64,000 nt of DNA from Methanofollis formosanus (lineage in GTDB: Archaea; Halobacteriota; Methanomicrobia; Methanomicrobiales; Methanofollaceae), in NCBI RefSeq assembly GCF_019633745.1, contig NZ_CP037968.1, positions 826,318 through 890,317 on the forward strand, read 5' to 3'. Positions 7,274 to 62,420 of the stretch are shown here, one piece after another. The stretch's first letter is position 1. Each line of letters opens with the position of its first letter. The notes under the pieces were generated by a model that saw only the letters and a list, made by a program, of their open reading frames with translations, was not told where the DNA came from and made no database searches. A program made the position numbers and the translations under genes.

Positions 7274-11779
<4,506 letters not shown>

Positions 11780-54777: not shown

Positions 54778-56274
54778 GTGAAACCGAGTCAGCCTCCGGC
54801 ACAGGGACACCACACCCTCCTCATCATCTCTGCCATCGCCATCGCGGCCTTCATGTCCGCGCTCGACGGCAGCATCGTGAACATCGCCCTCCCGACGATC
54901 TCGGAAGCGTTCGACATCTCAACAGGCCTCGTCTCCTGGGTCTCGACGGCCTATCTGCTGGTGGTGACGAGCAGCCTGCTGATCTGCGGGAAGATCGCCG
55001 ATATCAGGGGCCTCAAGAAGATCTTCCTCGTCGGGTTCGTCGTCTTCACCCTGGGATCGTTTCTCTGCGGCTTCCTGCCGGTCGCCCTCAACTCCTTCGG
55101 GGCCCTCATCGGCGCGAGGGTCGTCCAGGCGATCGGGGGAGCGATGCTCGCCGCCATCGCCCCGGCCATGGTCAGTACCTTCATCCCCATCGAAGAGCGG
55201 GGGCGGAGCATGGGCCTGGTGGTCACCTTCGCCTCCCTCGGCGCGGCAGCCGGGCCGTTCCTCGGCGGGCTCCTGACCGAGTTCCTCAGCTGGCACTGGA
55301 TCTTCTTCATCAATGTCCCGGTCGGGATCGGCGCCGTCATCCTGGGCGCGCGGGTCCTCCCCCACCACCAGCCCGACGCCGGGCGGACGGCTGGGTTCGA
55401 CGCACCCGGTGCGGCCCTTCTCTTCGCCGGGATGATGACCGGCGTCTTCGCCCTCAACATGGGGACCGCGATGGGTTTCACCTCGCCGCTGATCCTGCTG
55501 GCCGCAGGCGCCGCCCTGGTCTGTGCCGCCCTCTTCGTATTCCATGAGCGGCGCGTCGAAGACCCGCTTCTCGACCTCCGCCTCTTCAGGGACCGCACCT
55601 TCCTCTATGCAAACCTGGCGGTCACCCTGATCATGATCGCCTTTGCCGGGTCCGCCTTCCTCCTCCCCTTCTTCCTCGAATATGTCAAAGGGATGCCGAC
55701 CTTCTCGGCCGGGATGGTGATGACCGCCTTCTCCTTTGCGATGATGATCGGCGGCCCGGTGGCCGGGGCGCTCTTCAACCGCGTCGGCGGTCGGCGGCTC
55801 ACGCTGGTCGGGGCGGTCCTGGCGGCCCTCGCGTTCGTCGTCCTCGCCGGCCTGCAGCCCGAGACCTCCGTCATCGTGGTCGCCGGGGCGCTCGGCCTCC
55901 TGGGCTTTGCGATCGGCCTCTATGTCGCCCCCAACAACACCATGGTGATGAACAAGGTCGGGGCTGAGAAGCGGGGGATGGTCTCCAGTCTCCTCAACAC
56001 CGAACGCTACGGCGGGCAGTCGCTGGGGATCGTCCTCTTCGAACTGGTCCTCATCCAGGGCGTCCTCTCGATCGTCTCGCATGCAGGCGTGACCTCCTCG
56101 TCGCTCGCTTCCGTCACCATCGACCAGAAACTCGCGGTCCTCACGGCCGGGTTCGATATGGCCTTCTGGGTCGGGGCGGCGCTCGCGGTGCTGGCGCTCG
56201 GGTTCTCGTTCCTGGTGAAGGAAGAGGAAGTGCCGGCCGAGATGGGAGAAGAGGTTCCTGCGGCGGTGGGATGA
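54778..56274 (+). CDS. MFS exporter, DHA2 (EmrB/QacA) type
   Basis: A 498-residue drug:H+ antiporter-like protein with about 14 membrane helices. Motif D1 MSALDGSIVNIALPTI (near residues 25-40), motif A GKIADIRGLKKIF (near 71-83) and motif C GAAAGPFLGGLLTEFLSWHWIFFINVPVG (in pieces, near 157-186) mark the DHA2 family. A C-terminal acidic tail (KEEEVPAEMGEEVP) is cytoplasmic. The GTG start is preferred because homology covers the first helix. Exported compound unknown. Confidence 0.9.
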   Translation: MKPSQPPAQGHHTLLIISAIAIAAFMSALDGSIVNIALPTISEAFDISTGLVSWVSTAYLLVVTSSLLICGKIADIRGLKKIFLVGFVVFTLGSFLCGFLPVALNSFGALIGARVVQAIGGAMLAAIAPAMVSTFIPIEERGRSMGLVVTFASLGAAAGPFLGGLLTEFLSWHWIFFINVPVGIGAVILGARVLPHHQPDAGRTAGFDAPGAALLFAGMMTGVFALNMGTAMGFTSPLILLAAGAALVCAALFVFHERRVEDPLLDLRLFRDRTFLYANLAVTLIMIAFAGSAFLLPFFLEYVKGMPTFSAGMVMTAFSFAMMIGGPVAGALFNRVGGRRLTLVGAVLAALAFVVLAGLQPETSVIVVAGALGLLGFAIGLYVAPNNTMVMNKVGAEKRGMVSSLLNTERYGGQSLGIVLFELVLIQGVLSIVSHAGVTSSSLASVTIDQKLAVLTAGFDMAFWVGAALAVLALGFSFLVKEEEVPAEMGEEVPAAVG

Positions 56275-57325: not shown

Positions 57326-59656
57326 TCATACGCGAGTTTCCGGCACGCCCACATCTTCTCCCGACAACCCGACAGAAGAAGACCATCCTCCCTCCGCCTT
57401 CCTGAAGGTGATCCCGACGGCGGCACCCTCCCTAGGTCTCCCGGGCACCCGGTCTCCGATCGAGACCCCACCCCCATAGCAGGCGGCCAGATCCCTGACA
57501 ATACACAGCCCGTGCCCGCGCACCTTTGAAGAAAGATCCTCACATATCTTCTCGGGAATCCCCGGCCCGTCGTCCTCGACCATGACCTCCACCCGGTCAC
57601 CGTCCTCCCTGACACCGACCAGGATGGACACCCCCTTCCCGCTGTACCTCACACTGTTGTCAAAGAGATTCCAGAATATCTCCCCGATCAGGTCGTCGGC
57701 AAGCACCACCGCGCCACTCTCTGCATACGCGATCTCGATCCCGGGAAAATGCGAGATCTCGTTTTTGATCGCGGCATCAAGGGAGACCTCCTGGAGCGCG
57801 GCGGTGCCGTTCCGGATCTCGCCGATCTTTCGGAGGGTCTTGAGATTACGGATCACCTCCTGGCCCTTCCTGATGGCGCGGGTCATTTTCTCTGCAACTA
57901 TCCTCGCCTCTCCGTCCACCATCTCATCGATGAGATCGGCATATCCAAGAGCGGCAGAGACGGCATTCGCTAGGTCGTGAGCGACGATGTCGAAGTGAAG
58001 AGCGGCGATACGCTCCGCCGCTTCACCCTCCCTGTTCCGGCGCATCTGAACATAAAGTGCACCGATCAGGTCTGCAGAGAGGTCAAGGGCCACATGCCCC
58101 TCATATACAGAGAGGTCAGGCACCCGCACCGAGAGACAGAGGAGACCCAGGGCCTCTTCCCCATCGGTGAGAGGGAGATGAACAACAGGATCTCCCCTTC
58201 CATCCCGTGTTTCTTCGGCGAAGGGCGCAACAGGGGATCCCTCATACCCCTGGAGTCCCGGGACGATCTCATCAAAAGGACCACAGTCTTCCTGCCTGAC
58301 GACACTGAGCGTGCCGTGCTCATCATACCGTACGATACACCCCCCGCCGATCTCAGGAAGATCCTGCACCGCTTCAAGGGCGGCCTTCAGGAATGCGTCG
58401 GCAGAACCGGCCGTCACCGAAGCCGCGACAATTCCCGAGACCGCTTCCGCAAGAGGTGAACCTATCGTCCCACACTCCCCGCTCCCCTCCCCACCGGGCA
58501 GAGGGTCGTGCAGTTCGGCAAAGACGCCCCTCGTCTCTCCCTCTCCGTCCCGATAGACGGTACCGTAGAAGAGAACCGACCGTATGCCGCCGTCGACCCC
58601 CCTGACCACGAGGGGGTGTTCTCTGACCGTGCCATCGGCGATGACCTTCCAGTACGCCTCCTCCGCACCGACGGGGTCGGTGAAGAGCGCACAGAACTCG
58701 GTACCGATCAGGGTGTCCCGCGTCCTGCCGGTCAACGCCTCGGTCGCTGCATTAACGTCGCTGATCCGCCGGTCAGGACCGATGGTCACCAGGGGATCGA
58801 TATGCGCCTCGATGAGGGTGCGTCTGTACTCCCCGGCCGAGATCACCTCTTTTTCAGCCTGTTTCTGTGCCGTGATATCGCGGACCGACTCGATGGCACC
58901 GGCGACGTTCCCGTCCTCACCGTACAGGAGGGTCGCCTTGGCCCAGAGCACCACCTGCTCCCCGTTCAAAGACGCCTCAGCGGTCTCTGCAATGATCAGG
59001 CCCGGTTCCCGTTGAACAAGGGTATAGGAGGAAGGCACCTCTTCATCAGGATGAAGGAGAGCGTCAACAAGGGACGGCCTGGATACATCGTAAAAGGGAC
59101 GTGCATAGGCGTGAGCGCCGGTGCCGATGATCTCGCCCGCCGCCACGCCGGTCATCGCCTCCATCGCCCGATTCCAGGCGATGACCTTTCCTGAACAGTC
59201 GATGGCAAAGGTCGCATCAGGGAGGTGGTGGAAGATCTCGGTGATCCGGCGCTCTGACTCGCGGACCTCCTGTTCAAACCGGTGCTTTTCCACGGCCCGC
59301 CTGACCGCGTTTCTCAGTTCTGCAAACTGTGACTTTGCCTCGCCCCCTTTCTGGATATAGAAGTCGGCCCCCTGGTTGAGTGCCTCGATCACCACCTCCT
59401 CTCTCCCCCGCCCGGTAAAGATGATGAAAGGGATTGGAATGCCGGCACTTCTCAGTTCGAAGAGAAAGTCGATCCCGTTCATGCCCGGCATCTCATAGTC
59501 TGAGATGACGGCATCGAACTCCGCGGTCTCGATCAATCCGAGCGCCTCTTCTGCAGATGTGCAGGAGGTGATCTGCATCTCGCCGGTACGTTCGAGAAAG
59601 AGTTGCGTCAGTTCAAGGATGAGCGATTCGTCGTCGACGTGGAGGATCCGCATCAT
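57326..59656 (-). CDS. Hybrid sensor histidine kinase (REC-PAS-PAS-GAF-HATPase)
   Basis: A 776-residue cytoplasmic signalling protein. An N-terminal receiver domain (about 1-120) has acidic residues HVDDES and phospho-acceptor Asp53 in ISDYEMPGM. Two PAS domains follow (about 138-260 and 270-390), then a GAF-like region (about 400-540). The kinase part has an H-box-like FDIVAHDLANAVSAALG (near 560), N box FWNLFDNSVRYS (near 660), and G boxes EDDGPGIP and GHGLCIVRDL. No membrane segment is seen. The ATG at 59656 has GGGGAGAG before it. It lies downstream of the ion-channel gene on the same strand with about 150 bp between. Confidence 0.85.
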   Translation of the reverse strand: MMRILHVDDESLILELTQLFLERTGEMQITSCTSAEEALGLIETAEFDAVISDYEMPGMNGIDFLFELRSAGIPIPFIIFTGRGREEVVIEALNQGADFYIQKGGEAKSQFAELRNAVRRAVEKHRFEQEVRESERRITEIFHHLPDATFAIDCSGKVIAWNRAMEAMTGVAAGEIIGTGAHAYARPFYDVSRPSLVDALLHPDEEVPSSYTLVQREPGLIIAETAEASLNGEQVVLWAKATLLYGEDGNVAGAIESVRDITAQKQAEKEVISAGEYRRTLIEAHIDPLVTIGPDRRISDVNAATEALTGRTRDTLIGTEFCALFTDPVGAEEAYWKVIADGTVREHPLVVRGVDGGIRSVLFYGTVYRDGEGETRGVFAELHDPLPGGEGSGECGTIGSPLAEAVSGIVAASVTAGSADAFLKAALEAVQDLPEIGGGCIVRYDEHGTLSVVRQEDCGPFDEIVPGLQGYEGSPVAPFAEETRDGRGDPVVHLPLTDGEEALGLLCLSVRVPDLSVYEGHVALDLSADLIGALYVQMRRNREGEAAERIAALHFDIVAHDLANAVSAALGYADLIDEMVDGEARIVAEKMTRAIRKGQEVIRNLKTLRKIGEIRNGTAALQEVSLDAAIKNEISHFPGIEIAYAESGAVVLADDLIGEIFWNLFDNSVRYSGKGVSILVGVREDGDRVEVMVEDDGPGIPEKICEDLSSKVRGHGLCIVRDLAACYGGGVSIGDRVPGRPREGAAVGITFRKAEGGWSSSVGLSGEDVGVPETRV

Positions 59657-59805
59657 GGTCAACTCTCCCCGATAAAATGTGACTTACGACCGATTCGAGG
59701 ATTTATGAGATCCTTGTTTGCTGAATGCATACTTTTCATCTCTATTTTGGTGGAGATAGGGGGTGCCCGAAGATCATTCAGAAGAGATCTCAAAACCGAA
59801 AGTGC

Positions 59806-61635
59806 TCACGAAAAAACAGTGGTAATCAGCACGATCGAGACGATGTACGCGACCGGGTAGCACCAGACCAGTACGCGATCGAGGCGTTCGGCCACCTCTT
59901 TCTGCTCTTTGGTCGCGAGCCACTTAAGGTACAGGTTGTAGACCACCGTGAGTCCGCTGACCACGAAGGTGGTGATCAGGACGGCGTCAAGGAAGGTGAG
60001 GTAGCCGAGACGCGGCAGGTCGCCGGCGATGGTGAAGTTGAAGGCGATGAAGAGGAGGAGGTTGGCGCTCGCCACGTCGGCGCGTTTGCTGTAGTCCTTG
60101 AGGAGGAAGGTGACCCACCCGAGCATCACCAGGATGAAGATGGGGACGAAGATCCTGAGGATATAATATTCGAGGTGCCGTTGCGCATCAAAGCCAAAGG
60201 AGAACCTGGAATGGATCCGGTCCTGTTCGACGGTGTCGACCTCGGTCCAGTAGTTGGTGATGTACCACTCCTCTTCGCCGAGTTGCGTGCCGACGACGGT
60301 CTTGCCTTCCCAGTCGGCATACTGGAAGAACTCTTCGGGGTACAGGGCCTGGATCCTGATGTAGAAGGTCTGAGTGTCGAAGGGGTAGTCCTTGAAGTAA
60401 AAGTCAGGGGCCTGGAAGGTCGTCCAGAAGCGTTCGAAGTAGGTCGTTGTCCCGTCCGGTGTGATGGTGATGAGCCGGTTCTGGGTCCACCGGTTCCCCT
60501 GCTGGTTGAAGAGGGTAAACTCGGGCCATCTCGTCCCTTCGGCCTCGACGAAGTCGTCGATCTCCCGGTAGATCTTGAAAGCAGAGCCTTCCTCCTGTGG
60601 GTCGAAGGCGAGTTCGGGATCGGTCCACCGCATCCTGATGTTTGCGACGGCGGCGTAGTTCTCGGCCTTCTGGTCCACGCCGGTGATCTGGTCCAGTTCC
60701 ACCGCGGCCCTGACGGTGATCGGGTCCCTGATCACCTGCCGTCCGCCGGGAACAGCGGTGCCGTCCAGGACGCCGGGATCGTTGACGCCGACGAGAAGCC
60801 TGAACTCCCCTTCGCCCTCGCCGGCCTCCACATGGAGGACCAGGCCCTCGGTCTCGTCGGTGGGAACCTGGTATGAGAGTGCTGCCCTGGTCCCGTGGTC
60901 CAGGAAGTTGGCCGCCATCAGGGGTTTCCCATCGACGCTCTCGAGGATGAGGACCGGTTTCAGGTCCCCCGAAATCGTCTCCACGACGGCATGGATGGTG
61001 TCTTCGGCCTCGAGGTCCTTGAGCGGGAAGAAGGTCCAGTTCCTGTTCGCGGTGAGAGTGCCGGTCCGCTCCTCGACACCTTTTCCTGCCGGCGGCATCG
61101 TCGGGTCGGGAACGGCGACGACCGCACCGGGTGTCGGTTCCGCCGTGCCGTTGAGCACACCCGGAGCGTCGATCCCGACGAGGAGCCCGTATTCACCGAA
61201 GGTTCTGGTCAACGGGGAGGAGGTGATGATAAGCGGATAATCCCCGGCCTCCGGAACCTCCCACGAGAATGCGGCGGCATGCCCTTCTGCGCTGTCGTCG
61301 TCCCAGGCGAGGAAGAACTGATCGGCGACCCCGGTGATCTCCGCGACCGGTTCGCCGCCGCCCCTGACCCTGCTCTCGACCGTGGTCCAGAATTCCTCGC
61401 CGAGGGTGGTGCGGTTAGTCTCGGGCGGCGCGATGGCGACGAAGGGGTCGAGGTTCCCTGAAGTCCGGTTCACCCGCACTGTGACGGTCTCGCCGGGTTG
61501 CAGGTCGGGGAGCAGATAGATCACACCGCCCTCTTCGAGCACCCTGCCTTCGAGTGCCTGGACCTCTCCTGCAGAGGCCATGGCCGGCAGGAGCAGCACC
61601 AGACACACGGCCACGAGCAATGCCCGACGATCCAT
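59806..61635 (-). CDS. Pentameric ligand-gated ion channel with two N-terminal beta domains
   Basis: A 609-residue Cys-loop-receptor homologue. After a signal peptide (1-22) come two similar beta domains (about 25-165 and 185-295), both ending in the same pattern, LLVGIDAPGVLNGTA (151-165) and LLVGVNDPGVLDGTA (280-294), like PPC-type domains. The ligand-binding domain (about 305-490) has MRWTDPELAFDP (335-346) and the Pro-loop DYPFDTQTF (416-424); the paired cysteines of animal receptors are absent, as in other prokaryotic members. Four membrane helices follow: about 491-513, 519-540, 545-570 and 588-608. The ATG at 61635 follows GGGGAGAG. Confidence 0.9.
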   Translation of the reverse strand: MDRRALLVAVCLVLLLPAMASAGEVQALEGRVLEEGGVIYLLPDLQPGETVTVRVNRTSGNLDPFVAIAPPETNRTTLGEEFWTTVESRVRGGGEPVAEITGVADQFFLAWDDDSAEGHAAAFSWEVPEAGDYPLIITSSPLTRTFGEYGLLVGIDAPGVLNGTAEPTPGAVVAVPDPTMPPAGKGVEERTGTLTANRNWTFFPLKDLEAEDTIHAVVETISGDLKPVLILESVDGKPLMAANFLDHGTRAALSYQVPTDETEGLVLHVEAGEGEGEFRLLVGVNDPGVLDGTAVPGGRQVIRDPITVRAAVELDQITGVDQKAENYAAVANIRMRWTDPELAFDPQEEGSAFKIYREIDDFVEAEGTRWPEFTLFNQQGNRWTQNRLITITPDGTTTYFERFWTTFQAPDFYFKDYPFDTQTFYIRIQALYPEEFFQYADWEGKTVVGTQLGEEEWYITNYWTEVDTVEQDRIHSRFSFGFDAQRHLEYYILRIFVPIFILVMLGWVTFLLKDYSKRADVASANLLLFIAFNFTIAGDLPRLGYLTFLDAVLITTFVVSGLTVVYNLYLKWLATKEQKEVAERLDRVLVWCYPVAYIVSIVLITTVFS

Positions 61636-61808
61636 CGAAAAACTCTCCCCCCCATTGCTGTCGGCAGCACCGGCGCGGCGACCCCCAGGTTCCGCCGGAG
61701 CGCCTCTGCCCTGTACTGCAGAGGACGACATATAAGTCTTTCCCGTCCGTCTGGCATGGGGGCCAAAGTATCATCGTCTCTGCGGCACACTCCTTTCTGG
61801 TACCCTTT

Positions 61809-62420
61809 ATGCGCCTCAGAGAATCTCTTGCGGGGTCGGTGCCCGCCCCGTACCTCGACCTCCTCACCGACCGCTATAATGTCATCGGAGATGTCGCCGT
61901 CCTCTCGCTTCATCTCCTGCTCCGGGCATATGAAAAAGAGAGCGCCCTGACGGTCGTCCGGAACAGAAAAAACATCCGGACGGTCCTGAACCGGGTCTCG
62001 AAACTGGAAGGGGACCACCGCGTCGCCCACTACGAGGCGGTCGCCGGGGAAGAGACGGTCACCTGCCACCGGGAGTACGGCTTCTCGTACCGCCTGGACG
62101 TGGCCACAGTCTTCTTCAACCCTTCGCTCGGCACCGAGCGGCAGCGGGTCGCCGGGATGGTCAAACCCGGCGAGCGGGTGCTCGTCCCCTTTGCCGGCGT
62201 GGGGCCGTTCGTCGTGCCGGCGGCGACACGAGGGGCGCAGGTCGTGCCCCTGGTGCGGGCCGACGGAATCGTTCATTTCTATACCTTCAAGAAGCCCAAA
62301 GAGATCGCCGGGCTTTCCGGGAGTTTCCGGGAGATGAGGCTTGAGATCCGGTCATACCGGCGGTGCGGGAACGTGGCGCAGGGCGTTTCCAGATGGGTCT
62401 TCGATCTGGTCCGGAGATGA
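61809..62420 (+). CDS. Shortened Trm5/Taw2-like protein, middle of methyltransferase domain missing
   Basis: A 203-residue relative of Trm5 (tRNA m1G37 methyltransferase). The N-terminal YNVIGDVAVL (near 23), the HREYGFSYRLDVATVFFNPSLGTER (in pieces, near 98-122) and SAM motif I VLVPFAGVGPFVVPAA (near 133-148) are clear. Immediately after GAQVVPL the sequence passes to DGIVHFYTF, normally about 90 residues further on, and then ends as the family does (GNVAQGVSRWVFDLVRR). The segment with the acidic SAM-ribose residue and the NLPH-type catalytic motif is absent. Either an inactive paralogue or an in-frame deletion of the gene. Confidence 0.75.
   Translation: MRLRESLAGSVPAPYLDLLTDRYNVIGDVAVLSLHLLLRAYEKESALTVVRNRKNIRTVLNRVSKLEGDHRVAHYEAVAGEETVTCHREYGFSYRLDVATVFFNPSLGTERQRVAGMVKPGERVLVPFAGVGPFVVPAATRGAQVVPLVRADGIVHFYTFKKPKEIAGLSGSFREMRLEIRSYRRCGNVAQGVSRWVFDLVRR

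Follow-up and report, generated by a model that had tools for sequence, protein, structure and literature searches.

A DeCLIC-type pLGIC with duplicated N-terminal jelly-roll domains in the methanogenic archaeon Methanofollis formosanus

The channel gene and its domains

We analysed a window of 64,000 nucleotides from the genome of Methanofollis formosanus, which consists of a single contig of 2.97 Mb. On the minus strand of this window, at positions 59806-61635, lies a gene for a channel protein of 609 amino acids plus the stop codon (coding part 59809-61635), without any internal stop codon. An upstream ATG at 61731 would extend the frame to 641 amino acids. This longer version was dropped because its ATG is located within a TATA-box-like element (CTTATATG, 61736-61729). 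As a purine-rich GGGGGGAGAG is in addition present 8 nt 5′ of the ATG at 61635, the latter, which was also used in a first-pass annotation of the window, is probably the better start. Scans for sigma-70 promoters and terminators were set aside as uninformative for an archaeon. On the opposite strand, a frame at 61554-62420 (+) shows a partial match to TRM5/TYW2 tRNA methyltransferases, confined to residues 88-227. As the beginning of this frame overlaps the 5′ end of the channel gene, its true start should be further in, and this TRM5/TYW2-like gene looks truncated or frameshifted.

The following features were assigned to the channel gene, all on the minus strand:

61570-61635, minus: signal peptide, aa 1-22 (MDRRALLVAVCLVLLLPAMASA), a hydrophobic stretch that ends in ASA
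61132-61569, minus: NTD1, aa 23-168, a PPC-type jelly roll with the putative calcium Site 1 residues (AlphaFold2, Foldseek, Pfam PPC in homologues)
61141-61185, minus: repeat motif 1, LLVGIDAPGVLNGTA, aa 151-165, present in the translation
60736-61098, minus: NTD2, aa 180-300, which repeats the NTD1 fold but lacks the acidic residues of Site 1 (hhalign against NTD1)
60754-60798, minus: repeat motif 2, LLVGVNDPGVLDGTA, aa 280-294, present in the translation
60181-60729, minus: canonical pLGIC ECD, aa 303-485, with Pro-loop YPFD and loop F QLGEEEW (Pfam PF02931; 42% identity to the DeCLIC ECD)
59809-60180, minus: TMD, helices M1-M4, aa 486-609 (AlphaFold2; 48% identity to DeCLIC)
60025-60093, minus: M2 pore helix, aa 515-537, with the acidic 2′ ring D520, L527 at 9′ and F534 at 16′ (alignment)

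The prime numbering of M2 follows an alignment of the AFN motif with GLIC. The Pfam profile Neur_chan_LBD (PF02931) matched aa 303-465 (E 2.3e-11), and the NCBIfam model LGIC_1 matched at 1.9e-31, which is under the curated cut-off of that model. An AlphaFold2 model of the full-length monomer, built with 40 homologues, reached a pLDDT of 85 and a pTM of 0.72 and contains two jelly rolls, the pLGIC beta sandwich and four helices (488-511, 515-537, 548-575 and 579-608). When this model was compared with the PDB using Foldseek, the best 20 matches were full-length DeCLIC chains (E down to 2.9e-61), and the pLGIC core also aligned to GLIC and sTeLIC. The TM-score to full-length DeCLIC was just 0.6-0.7 (rmsd about 7 Å), probably because the domain orientations differ. 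NTD1 alone matched DeCLIC at 0.8, and the core gave a TM-score to target of 0.89 with sTeLIC.

The ligand-binding domain, the DYPFDTQTF Pro-loop and the four membrane helices described in the first-pass annotation were all recovered in the sequence, with Pfam and in the AlphaFold2 model, and structure prediction of the monomer yielded the pLGIC fold and DeCLIC as its match. With an ECD beta sandwich, a YPFD Pro-loop and four subsequent helices of which M2 lines the pore, the protein is a Pro-loop receptor. The term 'Cys-loop-type channel' was right with respect to the pLGIC family (PF02931 and fold) but wrong with respect to the loop, because this reads APDFYFKDYPFDTQTF and lacks both cysteines of the disulphide; it is not a Cys-loop receptor in the eukaryotic sense.

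In a phmmer search against the PDB, DeCLIC was matched over residues 19-604 of the channel (E 1.2e-123), followed by sTeLIC over residues 303-604 (3e-83) and GLIC (about 1e-27). The full-length score is far above that of the core alone, which implies that the N-terminal half is homologous to DeCLIC as well. Identity to DeCLIC was 39% overall (NTD1 36%, NTD2 33%, ECD 42%, TMD 48%). Two tandem N-terminal jelly-roll lobes thus precede the ECD, with homology along the full length. The comparison with DeCLIC made in the first-pass annotation therefore stands: as an archaeal representative of the DeCLIC kind the channel is well supported, and it is better described as a DeCLIC homologue than as a new architecture. 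By analogy with DeCLIC, it would assemble as a pentamer and carry an ion-gated current.

The N-terminal domains are a duplicated module

The profiles of NTD1 and NTD2 aligned in hhalign with a probability of 99.7% (E ~1e-26 to 2e-26) over 110-112 columns, with 30% identity in the query, as against only 0.1-0.4% for either domain versus the ECD. The two domains, whose motifs LLVGIDAPGVLNGTA and LLVGVNDPGVLDGTA had already been read as internal duplicates, are a true internal duplication of a PPC-type, putatively calcium-binding jelly roll. Neither the acidic triad nor the helical insertion of NTD1 is present in NTD2, which probably lost its calcium ligands after the duplication.

Modelled alone, NTD1 reached a pLDDT of 91.5. 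Its Foldseek matches were the DeCLIC NTD crystal structure 6v4b, the periplasmic lysozyme inhibitor PliG, Tk-SP, the ColG collagen-binding domain and a PPC domain. A similar set of neighbours has been obtained for the DeCLIC NTD with Dali from the experimental structure (PMC12664993, 2025). The Pfam PPC profile (PF04151) matched 17 of 40 homologous NTD1s at E up to 0.1 (best 3.9e-5); there was no match of this profile to the NTD1 of the query itself, and no convincing Pfam match to NTD2.

The module was also observed on a protein without a channel. A Chloroflexota genome (G788, contig C66) encodes a secreted protein of 988 aa (L086 707-3673, plus strand), in which four tandem DeCLIC-NTD/PPC-type modules (PPC 1.1e-8) are followed by a HEFHH-motif region (DUF6055). 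Its four copies mark the NTD as a mobile module, and the pair on the channel is most readily understood as a PPC-type module of this mobile kind that was duplicated.

PPC-type domains such as that of ColG, which binds collagen, attach to macromolecules, and calcium has a structural role in them. The NTDs might accordingly recognise an organic molecule or a partner in the envelope, such as an S-layer glycan or a peptide, with only a structural role for calcium. This would fit the position of NTD1 near such domains in Foldseek, the four module copies in the channel-less HEFHH protein and the sulfatase genes that recur close to the channel gene in other methanogens. However, a conserved pocket was not found in the NTDs here, and the invariant residues of NTD1 are mostly the calcium ligands, which makes this explanation improbable.

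Putative calcium sites and the pore

Residue assignments for calcium Sites 1, 3 and 4 of DeCLIC were taken from PMC12664993. The corresponding residues of the channel are D63, P64, D113 and D114 for Site 1, E325, P410, F412 and L452 for Site 3, and Q451, G453 and E455 for Site 4. The main candidate ligands are encoded at the following positions:

61447-61449, minus: D63 (DeCLIC D76), putative Site 1 ligand, followed by P64; D63 in 40/40 homologues
61294-61299, minus: D113-D114 (DeCLIC D123 and D124), putative Site 1 ligands, in WDDD; 40/40 and 38/40 homologues
60661-60663, minus: E325 (DeCLIC E347), putative Site 3 ligand in the beta1-beta2 loop; 38/40 homologues
60268-60282, minus: loop F LGEEE, aa 452-456 (DeCLIC L477-E481), putative Sites 3 and 4 (alignment)

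All acidic side-chain ligands of Sites 1, 3 and 4 are identical in the query and are kept in at least 37 of the 40 homologues. Within loop F, E454 and E456 are present in 40/40, and E455 in 37/40 with D in the remaining three. The residues of DeCLIC-type calcium sites are thus in place, namely the NTD1 triad D63/D113/D114 as well as E325 and E455 (DeCLIC E347 and E480). Less conserved are the backbone-only Site 2, in which G126 of DeCLIC is replaced by A116, and the backbone ligand Y129 of Site 1, which is H119 here. The earlier suggestion that the extra domains sense an ion is likely to be right; NTD1 keeps the DeCLIC calcium ligands, and NTD2 does not. At the 2′ position of the pore, D or E was found in 40/40 homologues. 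The conserved calcium acids and the acidic 2′ ring are consistent with a calcium-inhibited, cation-selective channel.

We consider it likely, reasoning from DeCLIC, that the protein is a DeCLIC-type cation channel that is shut by external calcium and opens when calcium falls. The channel would be a pentamer in the cytoplasmic membrane whose NTDs and ECDs lie outside, beneath the S-layer. External calcium would be bound by NTD1 (D63, D113, D114) where it contacts the neighbouring NTD2, and also at the ECD interface, by E325 with loop F around E455, and would keep the pore shut. A drop in calcium would loosen the NTD lobes and open the interface, and cations could then flow through the pore, which has D520 as the acidic 2′ ring in its lining. 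For this model the fold, the full-length homology, the duplication, the conservation of the calcium ligands, the acidic pore ring and purifying selection (see below) were obtained here, and the pentamer, calcium inhibition and cation selectivity are carried over from DeCLIC. The cation currents that DeCLIC gives upon calcium depletion (PMC12664993) speak for the model; its calcium-free cryo-EM structures, which are still closed (PMC9897478, PMC12664993), count against it. Physiologically, the channel probably serves to respond when external calcium or ionic strength falls.

The PDB titles of 9fth and 9fti describe DeCLIC as open at pH 5, with and without calcium. These entries would agree with a DeCLIC-family cation channel for which pH is the physiological stimulus, while calcium would do no more than stabilise the folds of NTD and ECD. 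Precedents are GLIC, gated by protons, and sTeLIC, gated by alkaline pH; the latter is the next-nearest solved relative (42% identity, TM-score 0.89) and has the GEEEW loop. Protonation of acidic groups was moreover raised as an open question in the 2025 DeCLIC paper (PMC12664993). On the other hand, conservation extends to every calcium-ligand acid, also to those in NTD1, a domain that is absent from GLIC and sTeLIC, and DeCLIC responds to calcium in oocytes (PMC12664993). We therefore regard pH as a somewhat unlikely stimulus.

Gene neighbourhood

Directly downstream of the channel gene, on the same strand and after a gap of 144 bp, lies a gene for a response regulator-PAS-PAS-histidine kinase hybrid (57326-59662, minus). 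It was rejected as an operon partner, since a kinase homologue is adjacent to the channel gene in just one other genome among those examined. Malate dehydrogenase-like and methyltransferase-like neighbours, found in five genomes, were rejected as housekeeping genes that reflect synteny rather than function. The window also contains a gene for a DHA2-type MFS drug efflux transporter (54778-56274, plus; TIGR00711, 3.6e-80), and four other genomes of the genus likewise have a gene of this type close to the channel gene.

In several methanogen genera as well as in Chloroflexota, the long-type channel gene repeatedly has members of two families in its vicinity: a 782-aa sulfatase (PF00884) and proteins of DUF1269 or DUF6325 type, for which Pfam gave DUF1269. 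Examples are L073 2617-4962 (minus) and 10144-10857 (plus); others are at L071, L072, L067, L079 and L019. In statistics that ignore shared ancestry within genera, and in a comparison chosen after the neighbours were seen, the sulfatase was present in 21/27 genomes of the order with the channel versus 10/205 others (Fisher 3e-17), in 6/6 versus 4/34 when counted by genus (p 5e-5), and at 10 kb or less from the channel in 5/21 genomes of four genera (chance about 0.8% each, p 7e-7). In the genome of the window itself, the sulfatase is 575 kb away from the channel; it adjoins a DUF6325-like gene there, at about 311.3-313.9 kb. We treat the link between sulfatase and channel as a lead and not as a function. 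As a long shot, the channel could belong to a cassette for stress or ion homeostasis, together with the 782-aa sulfatase, DUF1269/DUF6325 proteins and transporters, that was swapped between Chloroflexota and methanogens, in which the PPC-type NTDs would sense a sulfatase-modified component of the archaeal envelope with calcium as co-ligand.

Distribution, selection and history

The long-type channel gene was found in 9/12 genomes of the genus Methanofollis and in 27/232 genomes of the order Methanomicrobiales, counted from listing rows; about 25 further genomes of the order have a short, distant pLGIC only. The archaeal homologue search also detected the long type in Methanotrichaceae and Methanophagales. 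Given this spread and a Methanosarcina pLGIC described in 2004 (PMC549065), the first-pass view that the architecture is unusual in a methanogen was too strong. Overall, the first-pass observation is confirmed and its interpretation partly supported. Bacterial carriers belong to Chloroflexota, Thermodesulfobacteriota, Nitrospirota and Pseudomonadota. Among 301 genomes drawn evenly from the phylum of one Chloroflexota carrier, the long type was present in that carrier only, indicating that the gene is sparse in bacteria too.

The patchy spread over 27/232 genomes could be taken to mean that the gene was acquired horizontally and persists as a silent, functionless remnant. Against this, dN/dS relative to two congeners was 0.14-0.15, which indicates purifying selection, and the frames are intact in nearly all genomes, so that a remnant is extremely improbable. 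The TMD had the lowest dN/dS (0.05-0.07), and the signal peptide (0.6-1.1) was the only segment near free evolution. The single probable frameshifted copy is in G451 (contig C23; L058 578-2442), where the gene is in two overlapping frames, an NTD part and an ECD-TMD part. Separate NTD and channel genes were rejected for this genome, as the apparent split looks like one frameshift in one MAG.

In the tree, Methanomicrobiales and Methanotrichaceae formed one clade (100/99), and two Methanophagales sequences were nested in another clade with Chloroflexota (100/100). The archaeal long-type genes are thus two separate groups among bacterial, mostly Chloroflexota, sequences, and a topology that held all archaea together was rejected (p-AU 5.3e-6). 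The simplest reading is at least two transfers across the domain boundary, in either direction. Together with the channel-less tandem-NTD protein, the tree bears on how the DeCLIC-type architecture arose: the data indicate that a PPC-type module was duplicated onto a channel, which later moved between bacteria and archaea at least twice.

A Chloroflexota channel with binding domains at both ends

A Chloroflexota pLGIC of about 1210 aa (L085 5925-9836, minus; genome G772, C15:145924-149559) carries a PBP-type domain (Peripla_BP_6), the pLGIC core and, after M4, a solute-binding domain SBP_bac_1 (PF01547, 6e-34). Relatives are found in G858, G859, G898, G968, G931 and G977. Full-length forms with 44-60% identity occur in five more genomes (six in all), one further copy is split over two contigs, and five shorter forms lack the C-terminal domain. 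In pLGICs the end of M4 faces the outside, which would place the two binding domains on the extracellular side, in an arrangement that recalls ionotropic glutamate receptors. Fusions of pLGICs to PBP-I at the N-terminus, and PBP-II genes as their operon neighbours, were reported in 2004 (PMC549065); no report of a pLGIC with binding domains at both ends of one chain was found in our literature search.

Significance and comparison with known channels

Nerve-transmitter receptors thus have a relative of the same family, a gated ion channel, in a methanogen. As methanogens depend on a sodium gradient, the presence of a gated cation channel in the membrane poses a concrete physiological question. 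The near-invariant calcium ligands of some 30 archaeal and 20 bacterial homologues point to sites that matter; these homologues are new proteins for structures, and their hosts may be tractable. Among pLGICs, DeCLIC alone is described as having an NTD that is characterised even in part, and both its role in the cell and the stimulus that gates it are open (PMC12664993, 2025). Jaiteh et al. 2016 (PMC4795631) added further archaeal pLGICs and had already deduced several lateral transfers into archaea. No DeCLIC-type channel was reported from archaea in the literature searched, which is weak evidence as subscription journals were thinly covered.

sTeLIC (6fl9) shares the ECD and TMD with the query (42% identity, GEEEW loop F), but lacks the N-terminal domains and is gated by alkaline pH according to its PDB title. 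GLIC, the proton-gated channel of Gloeobacter, shares the pLGIC core fold at about 24% identity, also without NTDs, and its acidic pore residue is at -2′ instead of 2′. PPC domains (PF04151; ColG collagen-binding domain, Tk-SP) share the fold and the calcium-binding strand region of NTD1 (PMC12664993), but are normally C-terminal in secreted enzymes, whereas NTD1 is at the N-terminus of a channel. The Methanosarcina pLGIC of Tasneem et al. 2004 is, like the query, a methanogen channel with two added N-terminal sensor domains; these are, however, MCP-N and Cache domains, unrelated to the NTDs (PMC549065).

DeCLIC from the deltaproteobacterium Desulfofustis (6v4a/6v4s, 7q3g/7q3h, 9ev8, 9fth) has the same order of signal peptide, NTD1, NTD2, ECD and TMD, and both proteins have all acidic calcium ligands, the GEEEW loop F and an acidic 2′ position. 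The query differs in its Site 2 region (A116, H119), in the absence of the family-common cysteine pair that DeCLIC has (near aa 349-351 in the query) and in its host, a methanogenic archaeon and hence without an outer membrane or true periplasm. The DeCLIC-like build with intact calcium residues and the presence of the gene in many related methanogens argue for a real archaeal member of this group and not for a new kind of channel.
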